Shown here piece after piece: positions 7,372-17,778 of a stretch of DNA of 55,750 nucleotides. The position numbers were made by a program, and so were the translations under genes. The stretch is taken from contig JADHTQ010000023.1 of assembly GCA_016784965.1 (NCBI GenBank), positions 1-55,750 of the forward strand, read 5' to 3'. Position 1 is the stretch's first letter. Each line of letters starts with the position of its first letter. Source of the DNA: Bacteriovoracaceae bacterium. GTDB taxonomy: Bacteria; Bdellovibrionota; Bacteriovoracia; Bacteriovoracales; Bacteriovoracaceae. The notes below the pieces were generated by a model. It saw nothing but the letters and a program-made list of their open reading frames with translations, was not told where the DNA came from and did not search any database.

Positions 7372-7956
7372 ATGGGCCAAGTAAATAATACGAGACTATT
7401 TCTTAGATTGAAAAAAAGAGATACCGAGATACCTCCTCTAGTTTTAAAAAATTTGGAGTTAACTAGCTTAGAAATCGTGGGGGATAACTTACAAGTAATA
7501 CCCCAGCAAATCATACATCTACAAAAGCTAGAAACACTTTCCATAAGTGCAAAACTTATCACCCAAATTCCCAAGGAGGTTTTTAACCTTCCAATGCTTA
7601 AAACTCTAAAGCTTAAAAACTGCAGCCTGAAAACTCTTCCCGACACAACGCCAACTTGCATCGACTTAAAAAACCTTCATTTAACAAACAACGATTTAAC
7701 AATACTTCCCGACTGGATAGTTTATTTATTTGAACTTGAATATTTAGATCTTGCCGGCAACAAACTTTCAACTCTGCCAGAAGGATTCGAGAAAATTAAA
7801 AACCTGCGCAGGTTAATTCTTGATCGCAATAATTTTGTTAAGCTCCCAAACTCTCTAGAAAAGTTAGTGACCTTAAACCATCTCTCAGTGGACAATAATC
7901 CGTTTTCACCTGAAGAAAAAGAGCGCATTGCAACAGTCTTCTCCATCTGGTTTTAA
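7372..7956 (+). CDS. Leucine-rich-repeat protein
   Basis: 194 residues, nearly all leucine-rich repeats of the LxxLxLxxNxLxxLPxx type. The clearest are FELEYLDLAGNKLSTLPEGF, KNLRRLILDRNNFVKLPNSL and VTLNHLSVDNNPFSPEEKE. About seven turns of a solenoid are visible. There is no signal peptide or membrane segment, so it probably acts in the cytoplasm through protein contacts. No Shine-Dalgarno sequence is present, and a TACAAT lies eight bases before the ATG, so the message may be leaderless. It stands alone between pgsA and the thiolase. The partner cannot be told. Confidence 0.85.
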   Translation: MGQVNNTRLFLRLKKRDTEIPPLVLKNLELTSLEIVGDNLQVIPQQIIHLQKLETLSISAKLITQIPKEVFNLPMLKTLKLKNCSLKTLPDTTPTCIDLKNLHLTNNDLTILPDWIVYLFELEYLDLAGNKLSTLPEGFEKIKNLRRLILDRNNFVKLPNSLEKLVTLNHLSVDNNPFSPEEKERIATVFSIWF

Positions 7957-9736: not shown

Positions 9737-10789
9737 TTAAAACTTTACTGCTTGACACAACTCCTTATTAGCAGGTGTTGCAGTTAGATGTTTTCTAAAA
9801 TTGCCAAGAAACTCAAATAAATCTCTATCACTGTCCTTGGACAATTTTAAAACTCGATCAATCAACTCTAGCGAATATTTTCTAGGCAAAAACTTTAACT
9901 CATTTAAGGCCGCCTTTTTTTTGTGAATTGCTTTGTATTTGTAAATTAACTCAAACAACCACTCCCACAGGTTATCAGGGCACAGCACATGTAAGCTTTC
10001 TATGGCCTTTAGACTTACCTTTTGACTTTTATGCCTTATTAGGTCGTCAAATTTTTGTTTCAAAAATTTATCTTTAATCATAGCAAGAAAGATAATTCCC
10101 TGAGCAATAAAGTCAAAGTCTTTGTTAATTACAATATTTTTTTTAATTAACTTTAAAGTTTCAGGGTGAGTCGGAATAAGCTCAATTAGGTTGGCCCTGG
10201 CATAAGCTGAGTAAGTAAAGTCACCAGCATTTGCAAAAGTTAAAAGCTTATGGGTATATTTTTTAACAGTCATAGGATCTTTGCTGGTTTTTAAAATTGT
10301 AAAAATTATTGCAACTTGATCTAAGTACTCATGCTCCTCAATAGTCGCTTCAAGCTTTTTGACTATATCTAGGTGGGCAACACCTCCACTTCCCACTAAC
10401 GAAACTATCGCTTCATAGCGCACAAATTTATTCCTATCAGTTTGTAATGCTTTTAGTGCCTTTAGGCCGCCAGGCTTTTTACTAAAATACTTCAAGCTCT
10501 TTGCAATATTTATTCTCACTGTAACCGACGATGAATTTAAATTTTTTAGTGCTGCCAAAAATGCAGCGTCAACTTGCTGCCTAGACAATACCAAGATAGC
10601 ACTTGCTATTTGAGCATCTGTCGCGTTTTTATCTTGTAATACTTCTAGATTGAGCTGTTTAATTTTGTCCAATTTTGCCAAGGATTCCTTGGAAACCTTA
10701 GGATCTTTTTTATAAAAGGTTCGCAGTGAAATTAGTATGACCAAAAGGGTAATACCTGCTCCAATCAGGTAGATTTTTTTATTGGACAC
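9737..10789 (-). CDS. Membrane-anchored HEAT-repeat-like protein
   Basis: 350 residues. A single N-terminal membrane anchor (residues 6-24, YLIGAGITLLVILISLRTF) is followed by an all-helical region whose pattern recalls HEAT repeats (e.g. VTVRINIAKSLKYFSKKPGGLKALKALQ, and KFVRYEAIVSLVGSGG). Orientation is probably N-in with the solenoid in the periplasm. The gene overlaps the end of motB by 11 bases and is the third gene of the motA-motB operon. That makes it a candidate accessory part of the stator or machine rather than an unrelated gene. The HEAT assignment is by pattern. Confidence 0.7.
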   Translation of the reverse strand: MSNKKIYLIGAGITLLVILISLRTFYKKDPKVSKESLAKLDKIKQLNLEVLQDKNATDAQIASAILVLSRQQVDAAFLAALKNLNSSSVTVRINIAKSLKYFSKKPGGLKALKALQTDRNKFVRYEAIVSLVGSGGVAHLDIVKKLEATIEEHEYLDQVAIIFTILKTSKDPMTVKKYTHKLLTFANAGDFTYSAYARANLIELIPTHPETLKLIKKNIVINKDFDFIAQGIIFLAMIKDKFLKQKFDDLIRHKSQKVSLKAIESLHVLCPDNLWEWLFELIYKYKAIHKKKAALNELKFLPRKYSLELIDRVLKLSKDSDRDLFEFLGNFRKHLTATPANKELCQAVKF

Positions 10790-11654
10790 CCTTTTTTACC
10801 TTGTTTTGTTTAATATCTTCTTGTTTTTTAATTTTGGCCTTTGCTTTAATTTTGTCTTTTAACTCTGTAATGTTTTTAATTTTTTTCAGTACTTCCTTTT
10901 TATTAAAAATCAGGCCAAATCCCAACTTATAGCCCTTTGGTGGAGGCTGTACTATGGAGATAATAACTCGCCTATTTTTTGACATATTCTCTTCAATCCG
11001 CTTGCCTTGTTTATCCATATTAGGCAGCAGTGGTCGCGATTTACCATAACCTATGGCCCGCAACTTTTTACTATTATATCCTGCTTCAGAAAATTTCCTG
11101 GCAACATTGGCGGCCCTGGCGGCACTTAACTCCCAATTAGAGGGGAAATACTCTTTTAGCCCACCTGACTCACCAATTGGTACGCTATCTGTATGTCCTT
11201 CAATAATGATGCTTGAATCTTTTGTCTTAGCTAGAACTGTCGATATTAATTTATTAAGCAGAACATCTGCTTCAGGCCTTAGAGTGGCCTTACCAGAGTC
11301 AAAGAGTGCACTATTTTTCAACGTAACAGTTATCTCTTCATAGTTTTTTCTTTTAACTTCAAATTCATTTTCTTCCTTTGATACAGCTATTAGCTCTGTC
11401 ATCATGGCAGTCATTTGATCTTCTCTCTCCTCTACATTGGCCCCACGAAAATATTTTGATACTTCTTTTGCAATTCTTTGATAAGTAGGTTCATCAAAAT
11501 TAGCAAAGACCATCATTAAAATGAAGAAGCAACACAAAAGTGTCATGATATCTGCATATGAGATCAACCAGGCATCACTTTCATCTACAAGATCTGGTTC
11601 TGCCAGTAGAGCTTCGGCTTCATGGTCAATGTCGGAATCTTCTTGATCACTCAT
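10779..11654 (-). CDS. motB: MotB-type stator protein with OmpA peptidoglycan-binding domain
   Basis: 291 residues. After an acidic N-terminus comes WLISYADIMTLLCCFFILMMVF, the single MotB membrane segment with the ion-binding Asp35. The OmpA/MotB C-terminal domain (about 110-240) contains IIIEGHTDSVPIG, NWELSAARAANVARKF and the closing NRRVIISI, which anchors the stator to peptidoglycan. The last 50 residues are a Lys-rich tail not usual in MotB. Whether H+ or Na+ is used cannot be told. motA lies three bases upstream and the HEAT-type gene overlaps downstream. It forms one operon, divergent from the FliF/FliG-like gene cluster. Confidence 0.92.
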   Translation of the reverse strand: MSDQEDSDIDHEAEALLAEPDLVDESDAWLISYADIMTLLCCFFILMMVFANFDEPTYQRIAKEVSKYFRGANVEEREDQMTAMMTELIAVSKEENEFEVKRKNYEEITVTLKNSALFDSGKATLRPEADVLLNKLISTVLAKTKDSSIIIEGHTDSVPIGESGGLKEYFPSNWELSAARAANVARKFSEAGYNSKKLRAIGYGKSRPLLPNMDKQGKRIEENMSKNRRVIISIVQPPPKGYKLGFGLIFNKKEVLKKIKNITELKDKIKAKAKIKKQEDIKQNKVKKGVQ

Positions 11655-11657
11655 CCT

Positions 11658-12470
11658 CTACTTCTTCTTATTCTTTTGTGCACCTCTTAATAATCGCTTC
11701 CAATCCATCCTTTCAGCAGGCCTTAAATAGGCATTTAAGATCTCAGCTAACTCTACTGGATTGGTTTTCTCGTAGATTAATCTTACCCCCTCAACAATAA
11801 TGGTGTTTTTAAAATACTGTTCTTTGGCAGCAATAGTTAAACTTTCTGCAATGGGAATTATAAAAAGGTTGGCCAAGGCAACACCATATAATGTAGTAAC
11901 CAAGCAAATGGACATAGCAGGTCCAATTAACTTAACGGCATTGGCCTCTGCTAAATTCGACAACAGCACGATCATACCAATAGTCGTTCCCATTAGCCCA
12001 AATGCCGGTGGAAATCTACCTATTGTTCTAAATTTATTGGCATCTTGTAGGTAGTGCTTATAAATGTTTACTGCCCGCGACCTTAAGACCATCATAAGCC
12101 TTTGCTTGTCTAGTACTTGATCAGTAAATGTTATCATTGCATCTTTTAAAAATGGATCTCTAATCATTGCAATTAATTGGTCAAAGTTAATGGCCTCGGC
12201 ACGATTTGCCTCTGATAGCTTCATTAAATCACTAATAACTTTGGCGTAATCATAAGATACATCAAATACCATCTTCCTCAAAAATACCACAATCAAAAGA
12301 TAGAACTTATTGATTTTAAAAGAGACCGCTGTGGCCGCCAGGGTACCTCCAAAAACAATGAAGATACTCACGGGATCAAAAAAGATGGCAATATTGGTAG
12401 TTGACAGATACAGTCCAGTTACCAGCACTATTGCTGCAAGGGCAATCGATAATAAATTAAAATATCTCAT
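11658..12470 (-). CDS. motA: MotA-type stator protein
   Basis: 270 residues with four membrane segments: two at the N-terminus (residues about 4-24 and 29-55) and two at about 150-215. FPPAFGLMGTTIGMIVLLSNL contains the conserved Pro and Gly of MotA/PomA at segment 3. The cytoplasmic loop between segments 2 and 3 is of normal length. With MotB it forms the torque-generating channel. There is no Shine-Dalgarno before the ATG; a TATATAT run sits four bases upstream, so the transcript may be leaderless. The start is 57 bases from the divergent start at 12528, giving a shared control region. Confidence 0.93.
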   Translation of the reverse strand: MRYFNLLSIALAAIVLVTGLYLSTTNIAIFFDPVSIFIVFGGTLAATAVSFKINKFYLLIVVFLRKMVFDVSYDYAKVISDLMKLSEANRAEAINFDQLIAMIRDPFLKDAMITFTDQVLDKQRLMMVLRSRAVNIYKHYLQDANKFRTIGRFPPAFGLMGTTIGMIVLLSNLAEANAVKLIGPAMSICLVTTLYGVALANLFIIPIAESLTIAAKEQYFKNTIIVEGVRLIYEKTNPVELAEILNAYLRPAERMDWKRLLRGAQKNKKK

Positions 12471-12527
12471 AACATATATATTAACATTTTTTTATTTTTT
12501 TTGGTAAAGATTTTTTATAATCCACCG
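12471..12527. promoter_or_regulatory. Divergent promoter between motA and the 12528 gene
   Basis: This A/T-only stretch drives both arms of the machine locus. Rightwards a perfect TATAAT at 12516-12521 is six bases from the ATG at 12528. Leftwards TATATAT lies next to the motA ATG. Neither gene has a Shine-Dalgarno sequence, so both transcripts are probably leaderless. No clear -35 box is visible on the right arm. Confidence 0.55.
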
Positions 12528-13244
12528 ATGCAGGTGGGAGAAGGGCCAGGAGAGGCCTGGAGTAATGAAAAAAGGATTTTAATTTTGAAACTTCTAAAAC
12601 AAATCACCAAAAAAATTGATTCCGTTACTGACAAACAATTTGAAGAGTATCAAAAAAACAACACGCCCAAAAAGCGCTTCGGTACGGATAAACCGCCCGT
12701 TAAGGGTCTTAATATCAACGTTCATAACGAGAAAGACTACTCTCCACTAACTTGGGAATTTGAAGAAATTGATAACCGCTTTAGTGTCTTAGAGCATTTC
12801 CACAAAGCAATTCCTAAATACAATACTAAGCGGAGCAATCCAGTCGATTATAACCAAGCAGTCGTTTTAGATGATTTTGACTTTGATAATCCCGAAGCTT
12901 TTATACCTGAAGAAGAAATTAGTCCTGTAAATTCACCTGATGATAATCCCTTGCCTCAATTTTCCATGCAAGATCTTCGCAAATTTCATGGCCAGCTAGA
13001 GGATGACGATGAGATTCCTCAACCTCCTAAGAATTTATTTTATAACTTAAAAAGGCAACTTAGGATTCCACTTTCAGACCATGTGCTAAAGAGTCCTCAA
13101 AACAACATTGAGAAGGTCTTGAGAGATTTCTATGGCCCAGATGACAGCAACAGGCCCAAGGATCCTCCCCCAAACACTAATACTAGTACTAGTAAAGGTA
13201 GAAGATTTCAAGTAGACACATTAACGATTAAACCAGGAAATTGA
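12528..13244 (+). CDS. Acidic, proline-rich protein of unknown family
   Basis: I do not recognise this 238-residue protein. It is soluble, with a short N-terminal helix (EKRILILKLLKQITKKIDSV) and then long stretches rich in Asp, Glu, Pro and Asn. It has no signal peptide, so it is expected in the cytoplasm. I start at ATG 12528: a longer reading from TTG 12501 would place the TATAAT promoter box inside the gene. It is the first gene of a four-gene run (spacings of 1 and 3 bases, then an overlap) ending with the FliF/FliG-like and outer-membrane-type proteins, so a structural or adaptor role there is likely. Confidence 0.75.
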   Translation: MQVGEGPGEAWSNEKRILILKLLKQITKKIDSVTDKQFEEYQKNNTPKKRFGTDKPPVKGLNINVHNEKDYSPLTWEFEEIDNRFSVLEHFHKAIPKYNTKRSNPVDYNQAVVLDDFDFDNPEAFIPEEEISPVNSPDDNPLPQFSMQDLRKFHGQLEDDDEIPQPPKNLFYNLKRQLRIPLSDHVLKSPQNNIEKVLRDFYGPDDSNRPKDPPPNTNTSTSKGRRFQVDTLTIKPGN

Positions 13245-13245
13245 T

Positions 13246-13881
13246 ATGAATACACGGACATGTATTTATTTTCTTATTACTTTTTTATTATTTACTTCAT
13301 GCTCTTCGGTAATCACAATTACAAGTACCCCCGATAAAGCAGATGTCCATCTTAGAAAACTCTCTAGTGGTACTTCTAAAAAAATCGGGACTACCCCGTT
13401 AACTGTAAATTCATCTGATATCTCTAAAGATTATGATGTAGATGGCCCGTTGTATATTGATCTAAAAAAAGATGGATATGCTACAACGTCAGCTATTGTT
13501 ACAGACTTTAGTTTTCGGGATATTCAACTTAAATTGGTTTTAGAAGCAAAAAACTTACTTGCATACTCTACAGAAGTCGATGGTATCATCAATGATCTTT
13601 TTGAAGCACAAAAGCTTATTAGAAAAAATAACCTAAATGATGCCCGTCTTATTCTTAACAATATAAAGAAGAAGCACCCCTACCTCTCTATCATTTATGA
13701 ATTTGAAGGGGGAATACATGTTGTAAACAAAGAATTTATTAAAGCATTAGATTTGTTTAAAGTTGCCATTAAATATAACTCTAACAATGTCGAAGCACTC
13801 AGGCTAAAGCGTGCCATTGAAAAGAAGTTAAATTTAAAGGATACAGGAAGTGTCCCTACAGCTACCCAACAAAACGAGTAA
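13246..13881 (+). CDS. PEGA-domain lipoprotein with TPR-like C-terminus
   Basis: 211 residues. The lipobox FTSC gives a lipidated Cys19. A PEGA-type domain follows (VITITSTPDKADVHLRKL, IGTTPLTVNS and YIDLKKDGYATT, residues 21-105), as found on many cell-surface proteins. The second half forms helical pairs like TPRs (AQKLIRKNNLNDARLILNNI, then FIKALDLFKVAIKYNSNNVEALRL). It should sit in the periplasm, attached to the inner or outer membrane. AGGAAA lies just upstream, with one base after the previous gene. Its place next to a MotAB-linked membrane protein suggests a scaffold or wall-linking part. Confidence 0.85.
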   Translation: MNTRTCIYFLITFLLFTSCSSVITITSTPDKADVHLRKLSSGTSKKIGTTPLTVNSSDISKDYDVDGPLYIDLKKDGYATTSAIVTDFSFRDIQLKLVLEAKNLLAYSTEVDGIINDLFEAQKLIRKNNLNDARLILNNIKKKHPYLSIIYEFEGGIHVVNKEFIKALDLFKVAIKYNSNNVEALRLKRAIEKKLNLKDTGSVPTATQQNE

Positions 13882-13884
13882 GAT

Positions 13885-16014
13885 ATGAAGAAACTAAATT
13901 TGACACAATACCTCTTAATTTTACTGCTGATACTAACCCCGTCATCGCTAGTTTATACCGCTCCTAATGATGTGGAAAACAACATTCTGCTGCAAAAGTT
14001 AGCACATGAAAACAATATCAGAGAACGCTTCACCAAGGGTGTCAGTACTATTTTAAAGCCAGAGGAATATTTGCTCTCTATCTCCATTGAATTGCAAAGT
14101 GAAGCTGAATTAGAAAAAAACCGGGCCGAACGTAAGAAAAAGCGTGATGAATTGCGGGCCAAAGAACTAAAAGAAGCTAAGGAAAAAGGAGAAAGTGCCA
14201 AAATCAAAGCAGGAGACTTTGTAGTTGGTGACATTACTAGATATGAAGATGGCGAAGATCTGCTCTACATGGACAAATTTGATTTTTCTACACCACTGGA
14301 AATTTCTAAGCCAGAGGATAGAGGAGAGTCTTCCAGGCCCTACCAAAGTTTTGCTGATGGTGGAGTTTATGTTGAAACAATTGCAGATCGAGTTAAAAAC
14401 ATTAATGTCGAAGTATTAATTGAAAATTCCATATCCAAAGAATCAACGACTATGGTCCAAAACCTATTGGCCAAGATTAACACACCGGTTCTAGGACTGA
14501 CTCCAAAAATCTCTTTTGGTCGTATTGCCCTCATACCGCTAGATGAATTAAAGAAAAAACAGGAAGAAAAAGTTGAACTCGACAAGAAAAAGAAACAAGA
14601 ACTAGAAGATGCTCAAAAAAGAGAAGACGAACTGAAGGCAAAAATGGCGGAAATGAAGGCAAGAACCAAAAAGCTACAAGAGGTCGATTGGCTTGAAGGG
14701 TTTAAAACTCCACTAGCTATCGTAATTGCTGCTCTGGCCATGCTGCTTATTGGATATTATTTTGTCACTAGTGGAATCAAGTTTGGTAATAAATTCCTAA
14801 CCACCATTGATGATGTCTTTTCAAGGCCAGGTACTGCAGCCGAAAGAGCAGGTCCCCCGACTGGAGCCGGAGGAGAAGGGGTCGGTCTTGCCAGCATGGA
14901 AATGAGTGGGGGAAGTTTTAGCTTAGATGACGATGTCCCACTTGTTGGTTTTGATCGCTTTGTATCACTGCTAAAATCATCACCTACAGAGGCACTATTG
15001 CTAATACGTAGATGGATCAGCAATGAAGAAGATGGCACACTTGAGGCACTCACAATCGTAATAAAGAAGGCCTCCACCGATGAGCTTTTATATATGTTTG
15101 ACAATTTAACTGTCAACGAAAGATCCCAGTGGAAGAAAAAATTAAAAACTAACCTGACCCGCCAAGGATTGAGGCTCGGCGACACCTTTATGGAAGCGCA
15201 GATCATGGATGGCATCATTTTGCCACCGCCCACGCTAGACCTCACCTCTAAGGAGATTTTATCTCGTTTATCACCGCAGGAGTGTGCTGAGTTAATCCAA
15301 GATGATTTTGAAGTAGGTTCAGTGCTACTAAATGTACTGCCTTTTGATTTTCTGGCCAGGACTTTTGACCATGTCGACCCAGAAACGACACTTCTTCTTG
15401 CCGATTATGGTCTAAACTATACTGACGGTCTACTTAATGAGAAAAAAGAAGAATTAAAAGAGATGTTACTTAAAATTAAAGATAAGCAAAATCCTGCCTA
15501 TACACCTTTTTTGGATAAAATCATTGAAATGATTCCCAATGTAGGAATAGCAAAAGAGGATGCTCTGTTTGACTCTCTGTTTAGAAATGGGCAAACTGAA
15601 ACTTTAAAACAAGTGGCAATACAGCACTTTCCCGCCTCATTAATTAAAAAGGCACCCCAGGATTTTATTAAAAAAATTATTATGAAGTATCCAAGAAAAC
15701 AGCGCGTAGAGTACCTTCTATCTCTAACAACTGAAGACCGCACCTTCTTTTTATCTATCTTTGGTGGAGATACAGAGAAAATGCGCTCCTTTATTGAAGC
15801 AGACTTAGAAGTAGTAGCTAAAAATGAAATTCTGTTGACAAAAATCAAAAAAAACAAAGACAAAATAGGCAAGGCCTTTATACAATTTGTAAGAGAGTAT
15901 ATTTCAGACAACAAGGCTTCCTTACCTGAAATGGAAAGACTCGTTGAAGATTGGGTTGATAATAAAACACAGGATGTTGAAGATGACTTTGAAGAAATCA
16001 CAGAAGCCGCATAA
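13885..16014 (+). CDS. Membrane protein resembling a FliF C-terminus joined to a FliG-like region
   Basis: 709 residues. A signal or anchor segment lies at 8-25. The periplasmic part has two pieces resembling the third ring-building domain of FliF: RERFTKGVSTILKPEEYLLS then SISIELQ, and VKNINVEVLIENSIS through PKISFGRIALIPL. Between and after them are long charged coiled coils. A second membrane segment lies at about 274-297. In the cytoplasm SSPTEALLLIRRWISNEED (364-382) resembles the FliF tail that grips FliG. About 300 residues of helical FliG-like repeats follow (RLSPQECAELIQDDFEVGSVLLN and similar). Family resemblance is by eye. It lies in one run with a PEGA lipoprotein, divergent from motAB. 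It may be a rotor or stator-docking protein of a non-flagellar machine. Confidence 0.7.
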   Translation: MKKLNLTQYLLILLLILTPSSLVYTAPNDVENNILLQKLAHENNIRERFTKGVSTILKPEEYLLSISIELQSEAELEKNRAERKKKRDELRAKELKEAKEKGESAKIKAGDFVVGDITRYEDGEDLLYMDKFDFSTPLEISKPEDRGESSRPYQSFADGGVYVETIADRVKNINVEVLIENSISKESTTMVQNLLAKINTPVLGLTPKISFGRIALIPLDELKKKQEEKVELDKKKKQELEDAQKREDELKAKMAEMKARTKKLQEVDWLEGFKTPLAIVIAALAMLLIGYYFVTSGIKFGNKFLTTIDDVFSRPGTAAERAGPPTGAGGEGVGLASMEMSGGSFSLDDDVPLVGFDRFVSLLKSSPTEALLLIRRWISNEEDGTLEALTIVIKKASTDELLYMFDNLTVNERSQWKKKLKTNLTRQGLRLGDTFMEAQIMDGIILPPPTLDLTSKEILSRLSPQECAELIQDDFEVGSVLLNVLPFDFLARTFDHVDPETTLLLADYGLNYTDGLLNEKKEELKEMLLKIKDKQNPAYTPFLDKIIEMIPNVGIAKEDALFDSLFRNGQTETLKQVAIQHFPASLIKKAPQDFIKKIIMKYPRKQRVEYLLSLTTEDRTFFLSIFGGDTEKMRSFIEADLEVVAKNEILLTKIKKNKDKIGKAFIQFVREYISDNKASLPEMERLVEDWVDNKTQDVEDDFEEITEAA

Positions 16015-16615
16015 TTTTTGGCCCAAGGTCATTGTTTTAATCATATTTTATGTGGTTATGACGATCAACCGCGCCCATGCAGGACTGCAGGGCGCTCAAC
16101 TCCACACAATTTTTGGTATGACTTCAGGCTCTTATTCATACGTCTCTAATAAGGTCAATTTTTCCATCATGAATACTATAAATATAGAAGCTGAGATATT
16201 TTTAGATTCTAAAAAATCATTTTTTGTTAAATTTGTTCAGGCATATGATTTAACCGAAAGTTTACTGAGGTACTATGCGGCCTATGTTGGAACTAAACTC
16301 TACGTATTTTCATCGGGCAAAATATTTACCAAAACTGATGGCAAAACACTAGTGGTCTCCACTCCCAGGTGGCGCTTTTATGTCGGATGGGACTTGGGGG
16401 TTGGCTCATTACTGCTAGATAAAAGAGGAGTTGCTGTTATTCTTTATGGTACTGCTTTAGAGATTGGGGCCAATGTTGGTGCCATTTGGCAAACATGGAA
16501 AACATTCGGTCTTGAAGCTACTGGAGGGATGTCATATGGTCTTAGTTTGTCATCGTATAGCTTCTCTGGCACAAATATCAGGCTCTACGCAGGCGGAGTA
16601 TATTACTTCGATTAA
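15983..16615 (+). CDS. Exported protein, probably a small outer-membrane barrel
   Basis: 210 residues starting MTLKKSQKPHN. A signal peptide runs to about residue 31 (IIFYVVMTINRAHA). The mature part alternates hydrophobic and polar residues with many aromatics and Gly (WRFYVGWDLGVGSLLL, IRLYAGGVYYFD). This is typical of an 8- to 10-strand outer-membrane beta barrel, though the final residue is Asp after Phe. It overlaps the preceding FliF/FliG-like gene by 32 bases, with AGGAT before the ATG; starts further upstream are open but lack a site. Overlap makes co-translation likely and ties the protein to the same envelope assembly. Confidence 0.7.
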   Translation: MTLKKSQKPHNFWPKVIVLIIFYVVMTINRAHAGLQGAQLHTIFGMTSGSYSYVSNKVNFSIMNTINIEAEIFLDSKKSFFVKFVQAYDLTESLLRYYAAYVGTKLYVFSSGKIFTKTDGKTLVVSTPRWRFYVGWDLGVGSLLLDKRGVAVILYGTALEIGANVGAIWQTWKTFGLEATGGMSYGLSLSSYSFSGTNIRLYAGGVYYFD

Positions 16616-16647: not shown

Positions 16648-17778
16648 TTAAAACTCAAATTTAAATTCAAGACCGGCCCATCCCCTTCTCCCATTTGCTG
16701 ATCCAGTACCGTAAGTTGGCAAAGGATGATATACAAAGTTAGTAGAGGTTCTAACATTTTTTAAAGTATTGGCCCCAAAGCGCTGCATACCCTCAAGAAT
16801 CATACCAGCAGGATTGATAATGAAGCGAACTGTATTTCCAATGAGAGTTGAACCCAATAATTTTCCCTTATTGGCAAGTATCTTTTTTTCCGTCTGATAA
16901 AAAAGCTCCCCAAGAAGCGACCCCACAGTCGGCGTAAGCAGCAAATCTTGTATTGATGGAACTTCAGCAAAGGCCTCGAGTCCATATTCCCAAAAAAATG
17001 TCGACATCAAAACTGAGTATCCAAAGGACTCAAGTCTATCAAGTTCACTATGACGAGCAACCAAATAGTAAGCAGCACCGGAGACGGGGTGTCCTATCCA
17101 ATTAATCGCCCACTCGTCTTCATCAATAACAGGTCCACTTGTAACATTGTCCACCCACTTGGATGGCAGACTGCTCAATAACTTGGCCTTATCGGGCTCC
17201 CACTTAGTCACTGAACTTGGCAGCGCCGCCAGTACACCGATAAATCCTACTCCCAGGGTTGCAATGTATTTTTGTTTTTTTAACAAGCTAGCATACCTAC
17301 CAGAGCTATTAGAAAAAGAAGGGACCGGTGTAACAACACTCCCATCATTATAGATTTTAGTAGTCGGCTCATCTTGTTTGTCAACATAGTTAACACCCGG
17401 CCTGAGCACTACAATGGAGACCATCGGTTTATCCGGATCTTCTGCATCACATAGGTCACTCAACTCAAAACGAGAGTTTTCAGACACTATCGTTTCGTTA
17501 TCAATGATGGAATCTTTTATATCGGTGCATCTTTCATGGTCTCTGGTATCAATAGTGAGTACTCTCCCCTCCACACGTCTTGGATTTGAGGCCACATTAT
17601 GTGTATCGTGCCAACCTTTATCCATTTTTCTGATTTGATCAATAGAGGGCATATATGGATAATGCATTTGATCTAATAGCTCAGCGGTTGGTTGTCCTTG
17701 CGTAGTCGCACAATAGAAACTTAGTAAGATATAAAAAGTTATGAAGCTGCTTAGACGCAAGCTTAAGGTTTTTGCCAT
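16648..17778 (-). CDS. Exported DUF3943 family protein
   Basis: 376 residues with a signal peptide ending near residue 28 (CATTQGQ). The core from about 215 to 300 is the DUF3943 pattern: NWIGHPVSGAAYYLVAR, then SFGYSVLMSTFFWEYGLEAFAEVPSIQDLLLTPTVGSLLGE. The C-terminus WAGLEFKFEF ends in Phe like an outer-membrane protein. The family is found in envelopes of Gram-negative bacteria and its function is unknown. It stands alone, convergent with the machine operon on its left (32 bases between stops). An inverted repeat at 17814-17833 lies in its promoter region. Confidence 0.8.
   Translation of the reverse strand: MAKTLSLRLSSFITFYILLSFYCATTQGQPTAELLDQMHYPYMPSIDQIRKMDKGWHDTHNVASNPRRVEGRVLTIDTRDHERCTDIKDSIIDNETIVSENSRFELSDLCDAEDPDKPMVSIVVLRPGVNYVDKQDEPTTKIYNDGSVVTPVPSFSNSSGRYASLLKKQKYIATLGVGFIGVLAALPSSVTKWEPDKAKLLSSLPSKWVDNVTSGPVIDEDEWAINWIGHPVSGAAYYLVARHSELDRLESFGYSVLMSTFFWEYGLEAFAEVPSIQDLLLTPTVGSLLGELFYQTEKKILANKGKLLGSTLIGNTVRFIINPAGMILEGMQRFGANTLKNVRTSTNFVYHPLPTYGTGSANGRRGWAGLEFKFEF

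Follow-up and report, generated by a model that had tools for sequence, protein, structure and literature searches.

Does a locus that combines motA and motB with a gene for a FliF/FliG-like protein belong to a flagellum, or does it encode an envelope machine of its own? To our knowledge, the stators and rotors of flagella are regarded as exclusive to that organelle. A stator survey likewise treats flagellar-type MotAB as flagellar (PMC12505986), and no description of a FliG-bearing, non-flagellar system of this kind was found in the open-licence literature that was searched. The question was addressed for a locus in a stretch of 55,750 nucleotides from a Bacteriovoracaceae bacterium (contig JADHTQ010000023.1, hereafter the window), for which an initial annotation had suggested a non-flagellar machine spanning the cell envelope. 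The locus was found to be a conserved, non-flagellar module, in which a flagellar-type stator is combined with a fused FliF-FliG rotor protein and outer-membrane parts. The motor core of this module is well supported; its output we infer.

Gene content of the two divergent operons

The open reading frames at 9737-16615 were arranged as initially annotated, in two divergent operons (Table 1) within each of which genes overlap or lie a few bases apart. The 57-base gap between the operons was also correct with the ATG at 12528 used as start of the acidic-protein gene, on which the length of the gap depends; the frame is also open from a TTG at 12501. The barrel gene could alternatively start at a TTG at 15944. 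A promoter scan found no sigma-70-like match inside the shared region; because the scan yielded fewer matches than shuffles, it was given no weight.

Table 1. Features of the divergent MotAB locus, with positions in the window.
Feature	Position	Strand	Evidence
HEAT-repeat protein, membrane-anchored, accessory	9737..10789	-	350 aa; HEAT_2 8.1e-9 (Pfam)
MotB: plug region, catalytic Asp (D35), OmpA peptidoglycan-binding domain	10779..11654	-	MotB_plug 1e-12, OmpA 8.2e-16 (Pfam)
MotA, flagellar-stator type	11658..12470	-	MotA_ExbB 6.7e-17 (Pfam); MotA/PomA structures, profile 2.7e-54 to 4e-24
Shared upstream region of the two divergent operons	12471..12527	.	57 bases; sequence
Acidic protein, lineage-specific	12528..13244	+	ORF; without Pfam match
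PEGA/TPR lipoprotein, outer-membrane type	13246..13881	+	Lipobox FTSC; TPR in profile
FliF-FliG fusion protein, 709 aa	13885..16014	+	Profile, fold, hhalign
RBM-like (FliF RBM3) periplasmic domain with disordered insert	13969..14526	+	Residues 29-214; model topology and hhalign
TM helix equivalent to FliF TM2	14704..14778	+	Profile, model, hhalign
FliG-like armadillo domain, residues about 354-700	14944..15984	+	PDB profile 3.3e-9, Foldseek, hhalign
Eight-stranded outer-membrane beta-barrel protein	15974..16615	+	AlphaFold, Foldseek; family in 38/41 loci

Proteins other than stator and rotor differed in how clearly they were recognized. In the single lipoprotein sequence, PEGA (0.02) and TPR were both under the Pfam cut-off; TPR was clear in the family profile. 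The barrel protein was modelled by AlphaFold with eight strands (pLDDT 77.5), and the top Foldseek matches of this model were NspA, Ail, OmpX, and OprF. The HEAT family occurred in 5 of 41 loci, in addition to one HEAT-MotB-MotA set in genome G161. From the same kind of set in G161, a homologue of the acidic protein was also divergently transcribed (5.8e-7), the only one among the fetched loci; no Pfam family matched the acidic protein.

Outside the locus, a leucine-rich-repeat protein (LRR_8, 1.8e-18) is encoded upstream at 7372-7956 of the window, and a DUF3943 protein (6.7e-38) at 16648-17778, where its gene converges on that of the barrel; no conserved link between the DUF3943 gene and the module was seen.

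Stator and rotor proteins

The best structure matches of the MotA profile were the MotA and PomA stators (2.7e-54 and 3.4e-48), so that an energizer of the ExbB/TolQ type was ruled out. The Asp of MotB was conserved in all 43 sequences and the MotA prolines in all 42. The stator is thus of the flagellar type, with a MotA/PomA-type MotA and a MotB that has the Asp, the plug, and the OmpA domain. In a quick tree of 109 rows, the MotAs of the system formed a group of their own apart from flagellar MotAs (support 88 for the side and 100 for an inner clade of 32 rows), and the other MotA of the window genome was placed among the flagellar ones. One long-branched system MotA (L116) fell outside the system group. 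MotB also matched ZorB models (7.4e-20), as is expected of any MotB with an OmpA domain; no ZorA, ZorC, ZorD, or ZorE match was found in the cluster and its MotA is flagellar-type, which makes a Zorya-like defence system extremely improbable.

The 709-aa protein gave no significant single-sequence match in Pfam or NCBIfam and profiles were therefore needed. An alignment of 28 homologues (A1), too diverse for a pattern scan, was compared as a profile with all PDB sequences and gave eight matches, every one of them FliG or FliF. The best of these covered the middle and C domains of FliG (3.3e-9), while residues 268-308 (RBM3) and 466-559 (TM2 and tail) of FliF were matched at 0.015 and 0.022, respectively, and the order of FliF RBM3, FliF TM2/tail, and FliG M and C was collinear. 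In an AlphaFold model of the fusion (pLDDT 69.6), the periplasmic domain showed the topology helix-strand-(insert)-strand-helix-strand, as in RBM3, followed by one TM helix and an all-helical domain. The top 12 Foldseek matches of this model were FliG without exception, the best at 1.8e-4 and spanning 338 columns, and FliF RBM3 appeared only weakly, at rank 49. By hhalign, the N half matched the flagellar FliF family at 83-88% and the C half the flagellar FliG family at 96.5-98.6%; for the whole fusion of the Bdellovibrio type these values were 94% (FliF) and 99% (FliG), and unrelated controls reached at most about 2%. Homology to FliF was thus weaker than homology to FliG.

These profile, fold, and hhalign matches demonstrated that the 709-aa protein is the membrane-proximal half of FliF fused to FliG, with the RBM3-TM2 region and FliG joined in one chain. 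Together with the modelling, they confirmed the outer-membrane barrel and bore out the initially noted FliF/FliG resemblance and span of the envelope. The fusion consists of a signal peptide, a periplasmic RBM-like domain, one TM helix, and a cytoplasmic FliG-like domain. It lacks RBM1, RBM2, and TM1 of FliF; ahead of its TM helix it has only the signal peptide and the single RBM-like domain. Its FliF part runs from an RBM3-type periplasmic domain through TM2 to the FliG-binding tail, and its FliG part comprises the middle and C-terminal armadillo domains. The FliM-binding EHPQ motif was not conserved in the fusion family, nor were the torque-helix charges D288/D289 of FliG, which contact MotA, in either A1 or the hhalign alignment. 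Torque transfer must therefore be rewired or absent.

Proteins of approximately 142 aa that consist of the FliG C-terminal domain alone were also observed (G000:C81:146302-146616, G000:C55:19318-19635; L285, L286, L287, L288), at two per genome in the species of the window and in G008. They are perhaps rotor competitors or brakes.

Conservation and independence from the flagellum

The initial annotation had made its reading depend on whether the gene order is kept in other Bdellovibrionota. The order recurred across the phylum in 40 further loci, many more than chance would produce. With the window included, the lipoprotein gene adjoined the fusion gene in 41 of 41 loci and the barrel family was recognized in 38; MotB and MotA were found in 29 and 28 of these 41 loci, several of which are cut by contig ends. 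The window-type fusion was present in 64 genomes and the Bdellovibrio type in 40 (matches with E < 1e-50), the union of both amounting to about 97 of 369 Bdellovibrionota genomes. Loci of the Bdellovibrio type had the order lipoprotein–fusion–barrel–MotA–MotB (L105, L106, L108), and in the 109-row tree their MotA grouped with that of Bdellovibrio sp. BIN15. The Bdellovibrio-type protein had no match in a scan of named genomes; organism names were taken from MotA-based loci.

A third variant, in Bdellovibrio-like single-contig genomes (L256:3335-9999 region, L289:8496-15144), encodes a 575-584-aa FliF-FliG fusion that was recognized from its single sequence (Pfam FliG_M, 2.9e-7; TIGR00207 FliG, 7.7e-11) and is accompanied by MotAB, lipoprotein, and barrel. 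In Halobacteriovorax-type loci, the FliG-like half stands alone as a 355-aa protein. At L127:5720-7264, in a Halobacteriovorax sp., a 514-aa membrane protein with LDKLxxL-type repeats was observed beside the stand-alone FliG-like protein and MotAB. In the Bdellovibrio-like genus g79, only 6 of 24 genomes matched the 615-aa type strongly, which indicated that the module is accessory rather than universal.

Neomarinimicrobiota loci (L184, L186, L179, L147, L217-L236) contained an operon with the order TPR–MotA–MotB–FliF-like–FliG and no other flagellar genes nearby. This order was found in 19 of 20 fetched loci, the remaining one ending at a contig edge before MotB. In the Marinimicrobia FliG, FliG_N, M, and C were all significant, and in one member of the FliF-like family FliF_C was matched at 0.0017. 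By hhalign against the Bdellovibrionota fusion, the FliF-like protein aligned with the N half (97%) and FliG with the C half (95-98%). Across 149 Marinimicrobia genomes, FliG_C was detected in 112 and FlhA in 34. The operon thus resembles the window module in its MotA-MotB, FliF-like, FliG, and TPR proteins, often in genomes that have no FlhA. In contrast to the window module, its FliF-like and FliG proteins are encoded by separate genes, extra TPR proteins are present, no barrel family was recognized, and its MotA belongs to a separate clade.

At the locus in the window, no linked export gate, axial rod, hook, switch, or filament genes were found, in agreement with the initial annotation, and the cluster proteins had no FliM/FliN match in Pfam or NCBIfam. 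The flagellar genes of the window genome lie on other contigs (FlhA on C76, FliG on C15, and nine flagellin matches). In genus g10, FlhA and flagellin were each absent from four of four genomes (completeness 88-99%). One of these, G147, has two modules, which hold its only two full-length MotAs; in G067, short matches were located at contig ends. Persistence in a genome without FlhA and flagellin indicated that these genes are not ordinary parts of a larger flagellar cluster. Two other genomes (G264, G371) had been candidates for this comparison; FlhA is missing from them but both contain flagellins, and they were not used as flagellum-less genomes.

Most module carriers are flagellated, and all three motAB pairs of Bdellovibrio have been treated as flagellar (PMC11323537), as would fit a locus that supplements the sheathed flagellum of the organism with additional stator and rotor components. 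This explanation is nevertheless improbable in view of the two modules of G147, the lack of flagellar neighbours, the separate MotA clade, and the lack of FlhA in most Marinimicrobia with the FliG. Two of the three MotAs of the Bdellovibrio-like genome G177 lie in modules of this kind. Homology of the components to flagellar parts would also be expected of a decayed flagellar remnant without present function, which is very unlikely, as frames are intact across many genomes, the catalytic Asp is invariant (43/43), gene order is conserved, several modules can occur per genome, and the module coexists with full flagella. Its patchy distribution and the presence of a flagellum in the window species itself point to an accessory machine.

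Proposed motor and its possible output

Giant proteins (1200 aa or longer) adjoined 22 of 40 modules and none of 20 control regions drawn from carrier genomes (p = 9e-6); in a matched comparison they adjoined 13 of 20 modules and 0 of 20 controls (p = 1.3e-5). Most of these giant neighbours carry a lipobox where their start lies in the locus, and fn3 or HYDIN-type Ig repeats were detected in all three that were tested. Giant lipoproteins of 1200-3400 aa were observed at modules L045, L054, L058, L064, L065, L068, L072, L074, and others, and no such gene lies next to the copy in the window. Giant lipoproteins beside the module are candidate surface adhesins. As to the gliding, prey-entry, or adhesin-moving apparatus that had been envisaged for the locus, the giant neighbours fit the adhesin idea. 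A function that is essential for predation is disfavoured by the patchiness of the module.

It is fairly probable, in our view, that the product of the locus is a rotary motor of the envelope that stands on its own, assembled from engine parts of the flagellar type and operating without a flagellum. In such a motor, the fusion protein would form an inner-membrane ring through its RBM-like domain, and wall-anchored MotA5B2 units powered by ion flow would rotate this ring via the FliG domain. The periplasmic side, acting via the PEGA/TPR lipoprotein and the barrel, might then move or organize outer-membrane lipoproteins or adhesins, with surface motility, attachment, or prey-contact functions as a possible result. 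The output is probably surface motility or attachment; candidates taken more broadly are gliding, attachment, prey contact, and secretion. Several observations speak against this explanation: EHPQ and D288/D289 of FliG are not conserved in the fusion, its FliF homology is the weaker of the two, no giant lipoprotein gene adjoins the window copy, the module is patchily distributed, the window species has a flagellum, and Agl-type candidate genes have already been put forward for Bdellovibrio gliding (PMC9140294, PMC12546842).

MotAB and a FliF-FliG ring might instead energize a non-motility process in the envelope, much as Tol-Pal or the type 9 secretion motor does; outer-membrane stability, export of lipoproteins or adhesins, and gating are examples. 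The core set includes an outer-membrane lipoprotein and a barrel, giant lipoproteins lie adjacent, and most module-bearing Marinimicrobia, for which we know of no surface motility, lack FlhA. All of this is consistent with the alternative, which we consider rather unlikely since the stator is flagellar-type and not TolQR/ExbBD-like.

The proposed rotary envelope motor shares with the bacterial flagellar motor the MotA/MotB type, ion-site Asp, and peptidoglycan anchor; its FliF RBM3-TM2 and FliG domains also agree with those of the flagellar motor in order and topology. Unlike the flagellar motor, the window module has FliF and FliG in one polypeptide, is without FliM/FliN, export gate, rod, hook, P/L ring, and filament genes, counts an outer-membrane lipoprotein and a barrel among its core components, and is kept without a flagellum. 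Myxococcus Agl-Glt similarly combines a MotAB-related proton channel with outer-membrane components and is proposed to move adhesins. AglRQS is, however, classed with generic (ExbBD/TolQR-like) transporters (PMC12505986), whereas the window stator is flagellar-type with a FliF-FliG rotor, and no Glt-type family matched the cluster proteins in Pfam or NCBIfam. The type 9 secretion/GldLM motor, too, is ion-driven and moves surface adhesins through outer-membrane lipoproteins; GldLM resembles MotAB but is not homologous to it (PMC13104615), and no Gld or Spr families were found among the cluster proteins (Pfam, NCBIfam).

More tentatively, the loci may represent a separate class of motor in at least two phyla, in which a flagellar-type stator turns a FliF-FliG rotor without export apparatus or filament and powers movement over surfaces by way of outer-membrane adhesins. 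Such a motor would serve gliding in Bdellovibrionota, alone or as one of several, and would claim some MotAB pairs that are now called flagellar. A 2026 review (PMC13104615) describes the gliding machinery of Bdellovibrio as still to be identified, a problem that it regards as a major challenge; other papers favour Agl-type clusters (PMC9140294, PMC12546842). In about one in four of the Bdellovibrionota genomes that were searched, the same engine that powers flagella appears to run alone in a minimal, fused form; it appears to do so unfused in many of the searched Marinimicrobia genomes. The finding is relevant to the modular assembly of the flagellum, to whether extra motAB pairs of Bdellovibrio are rightly called flagellar, and to the gliding motor of predatory bacteria.
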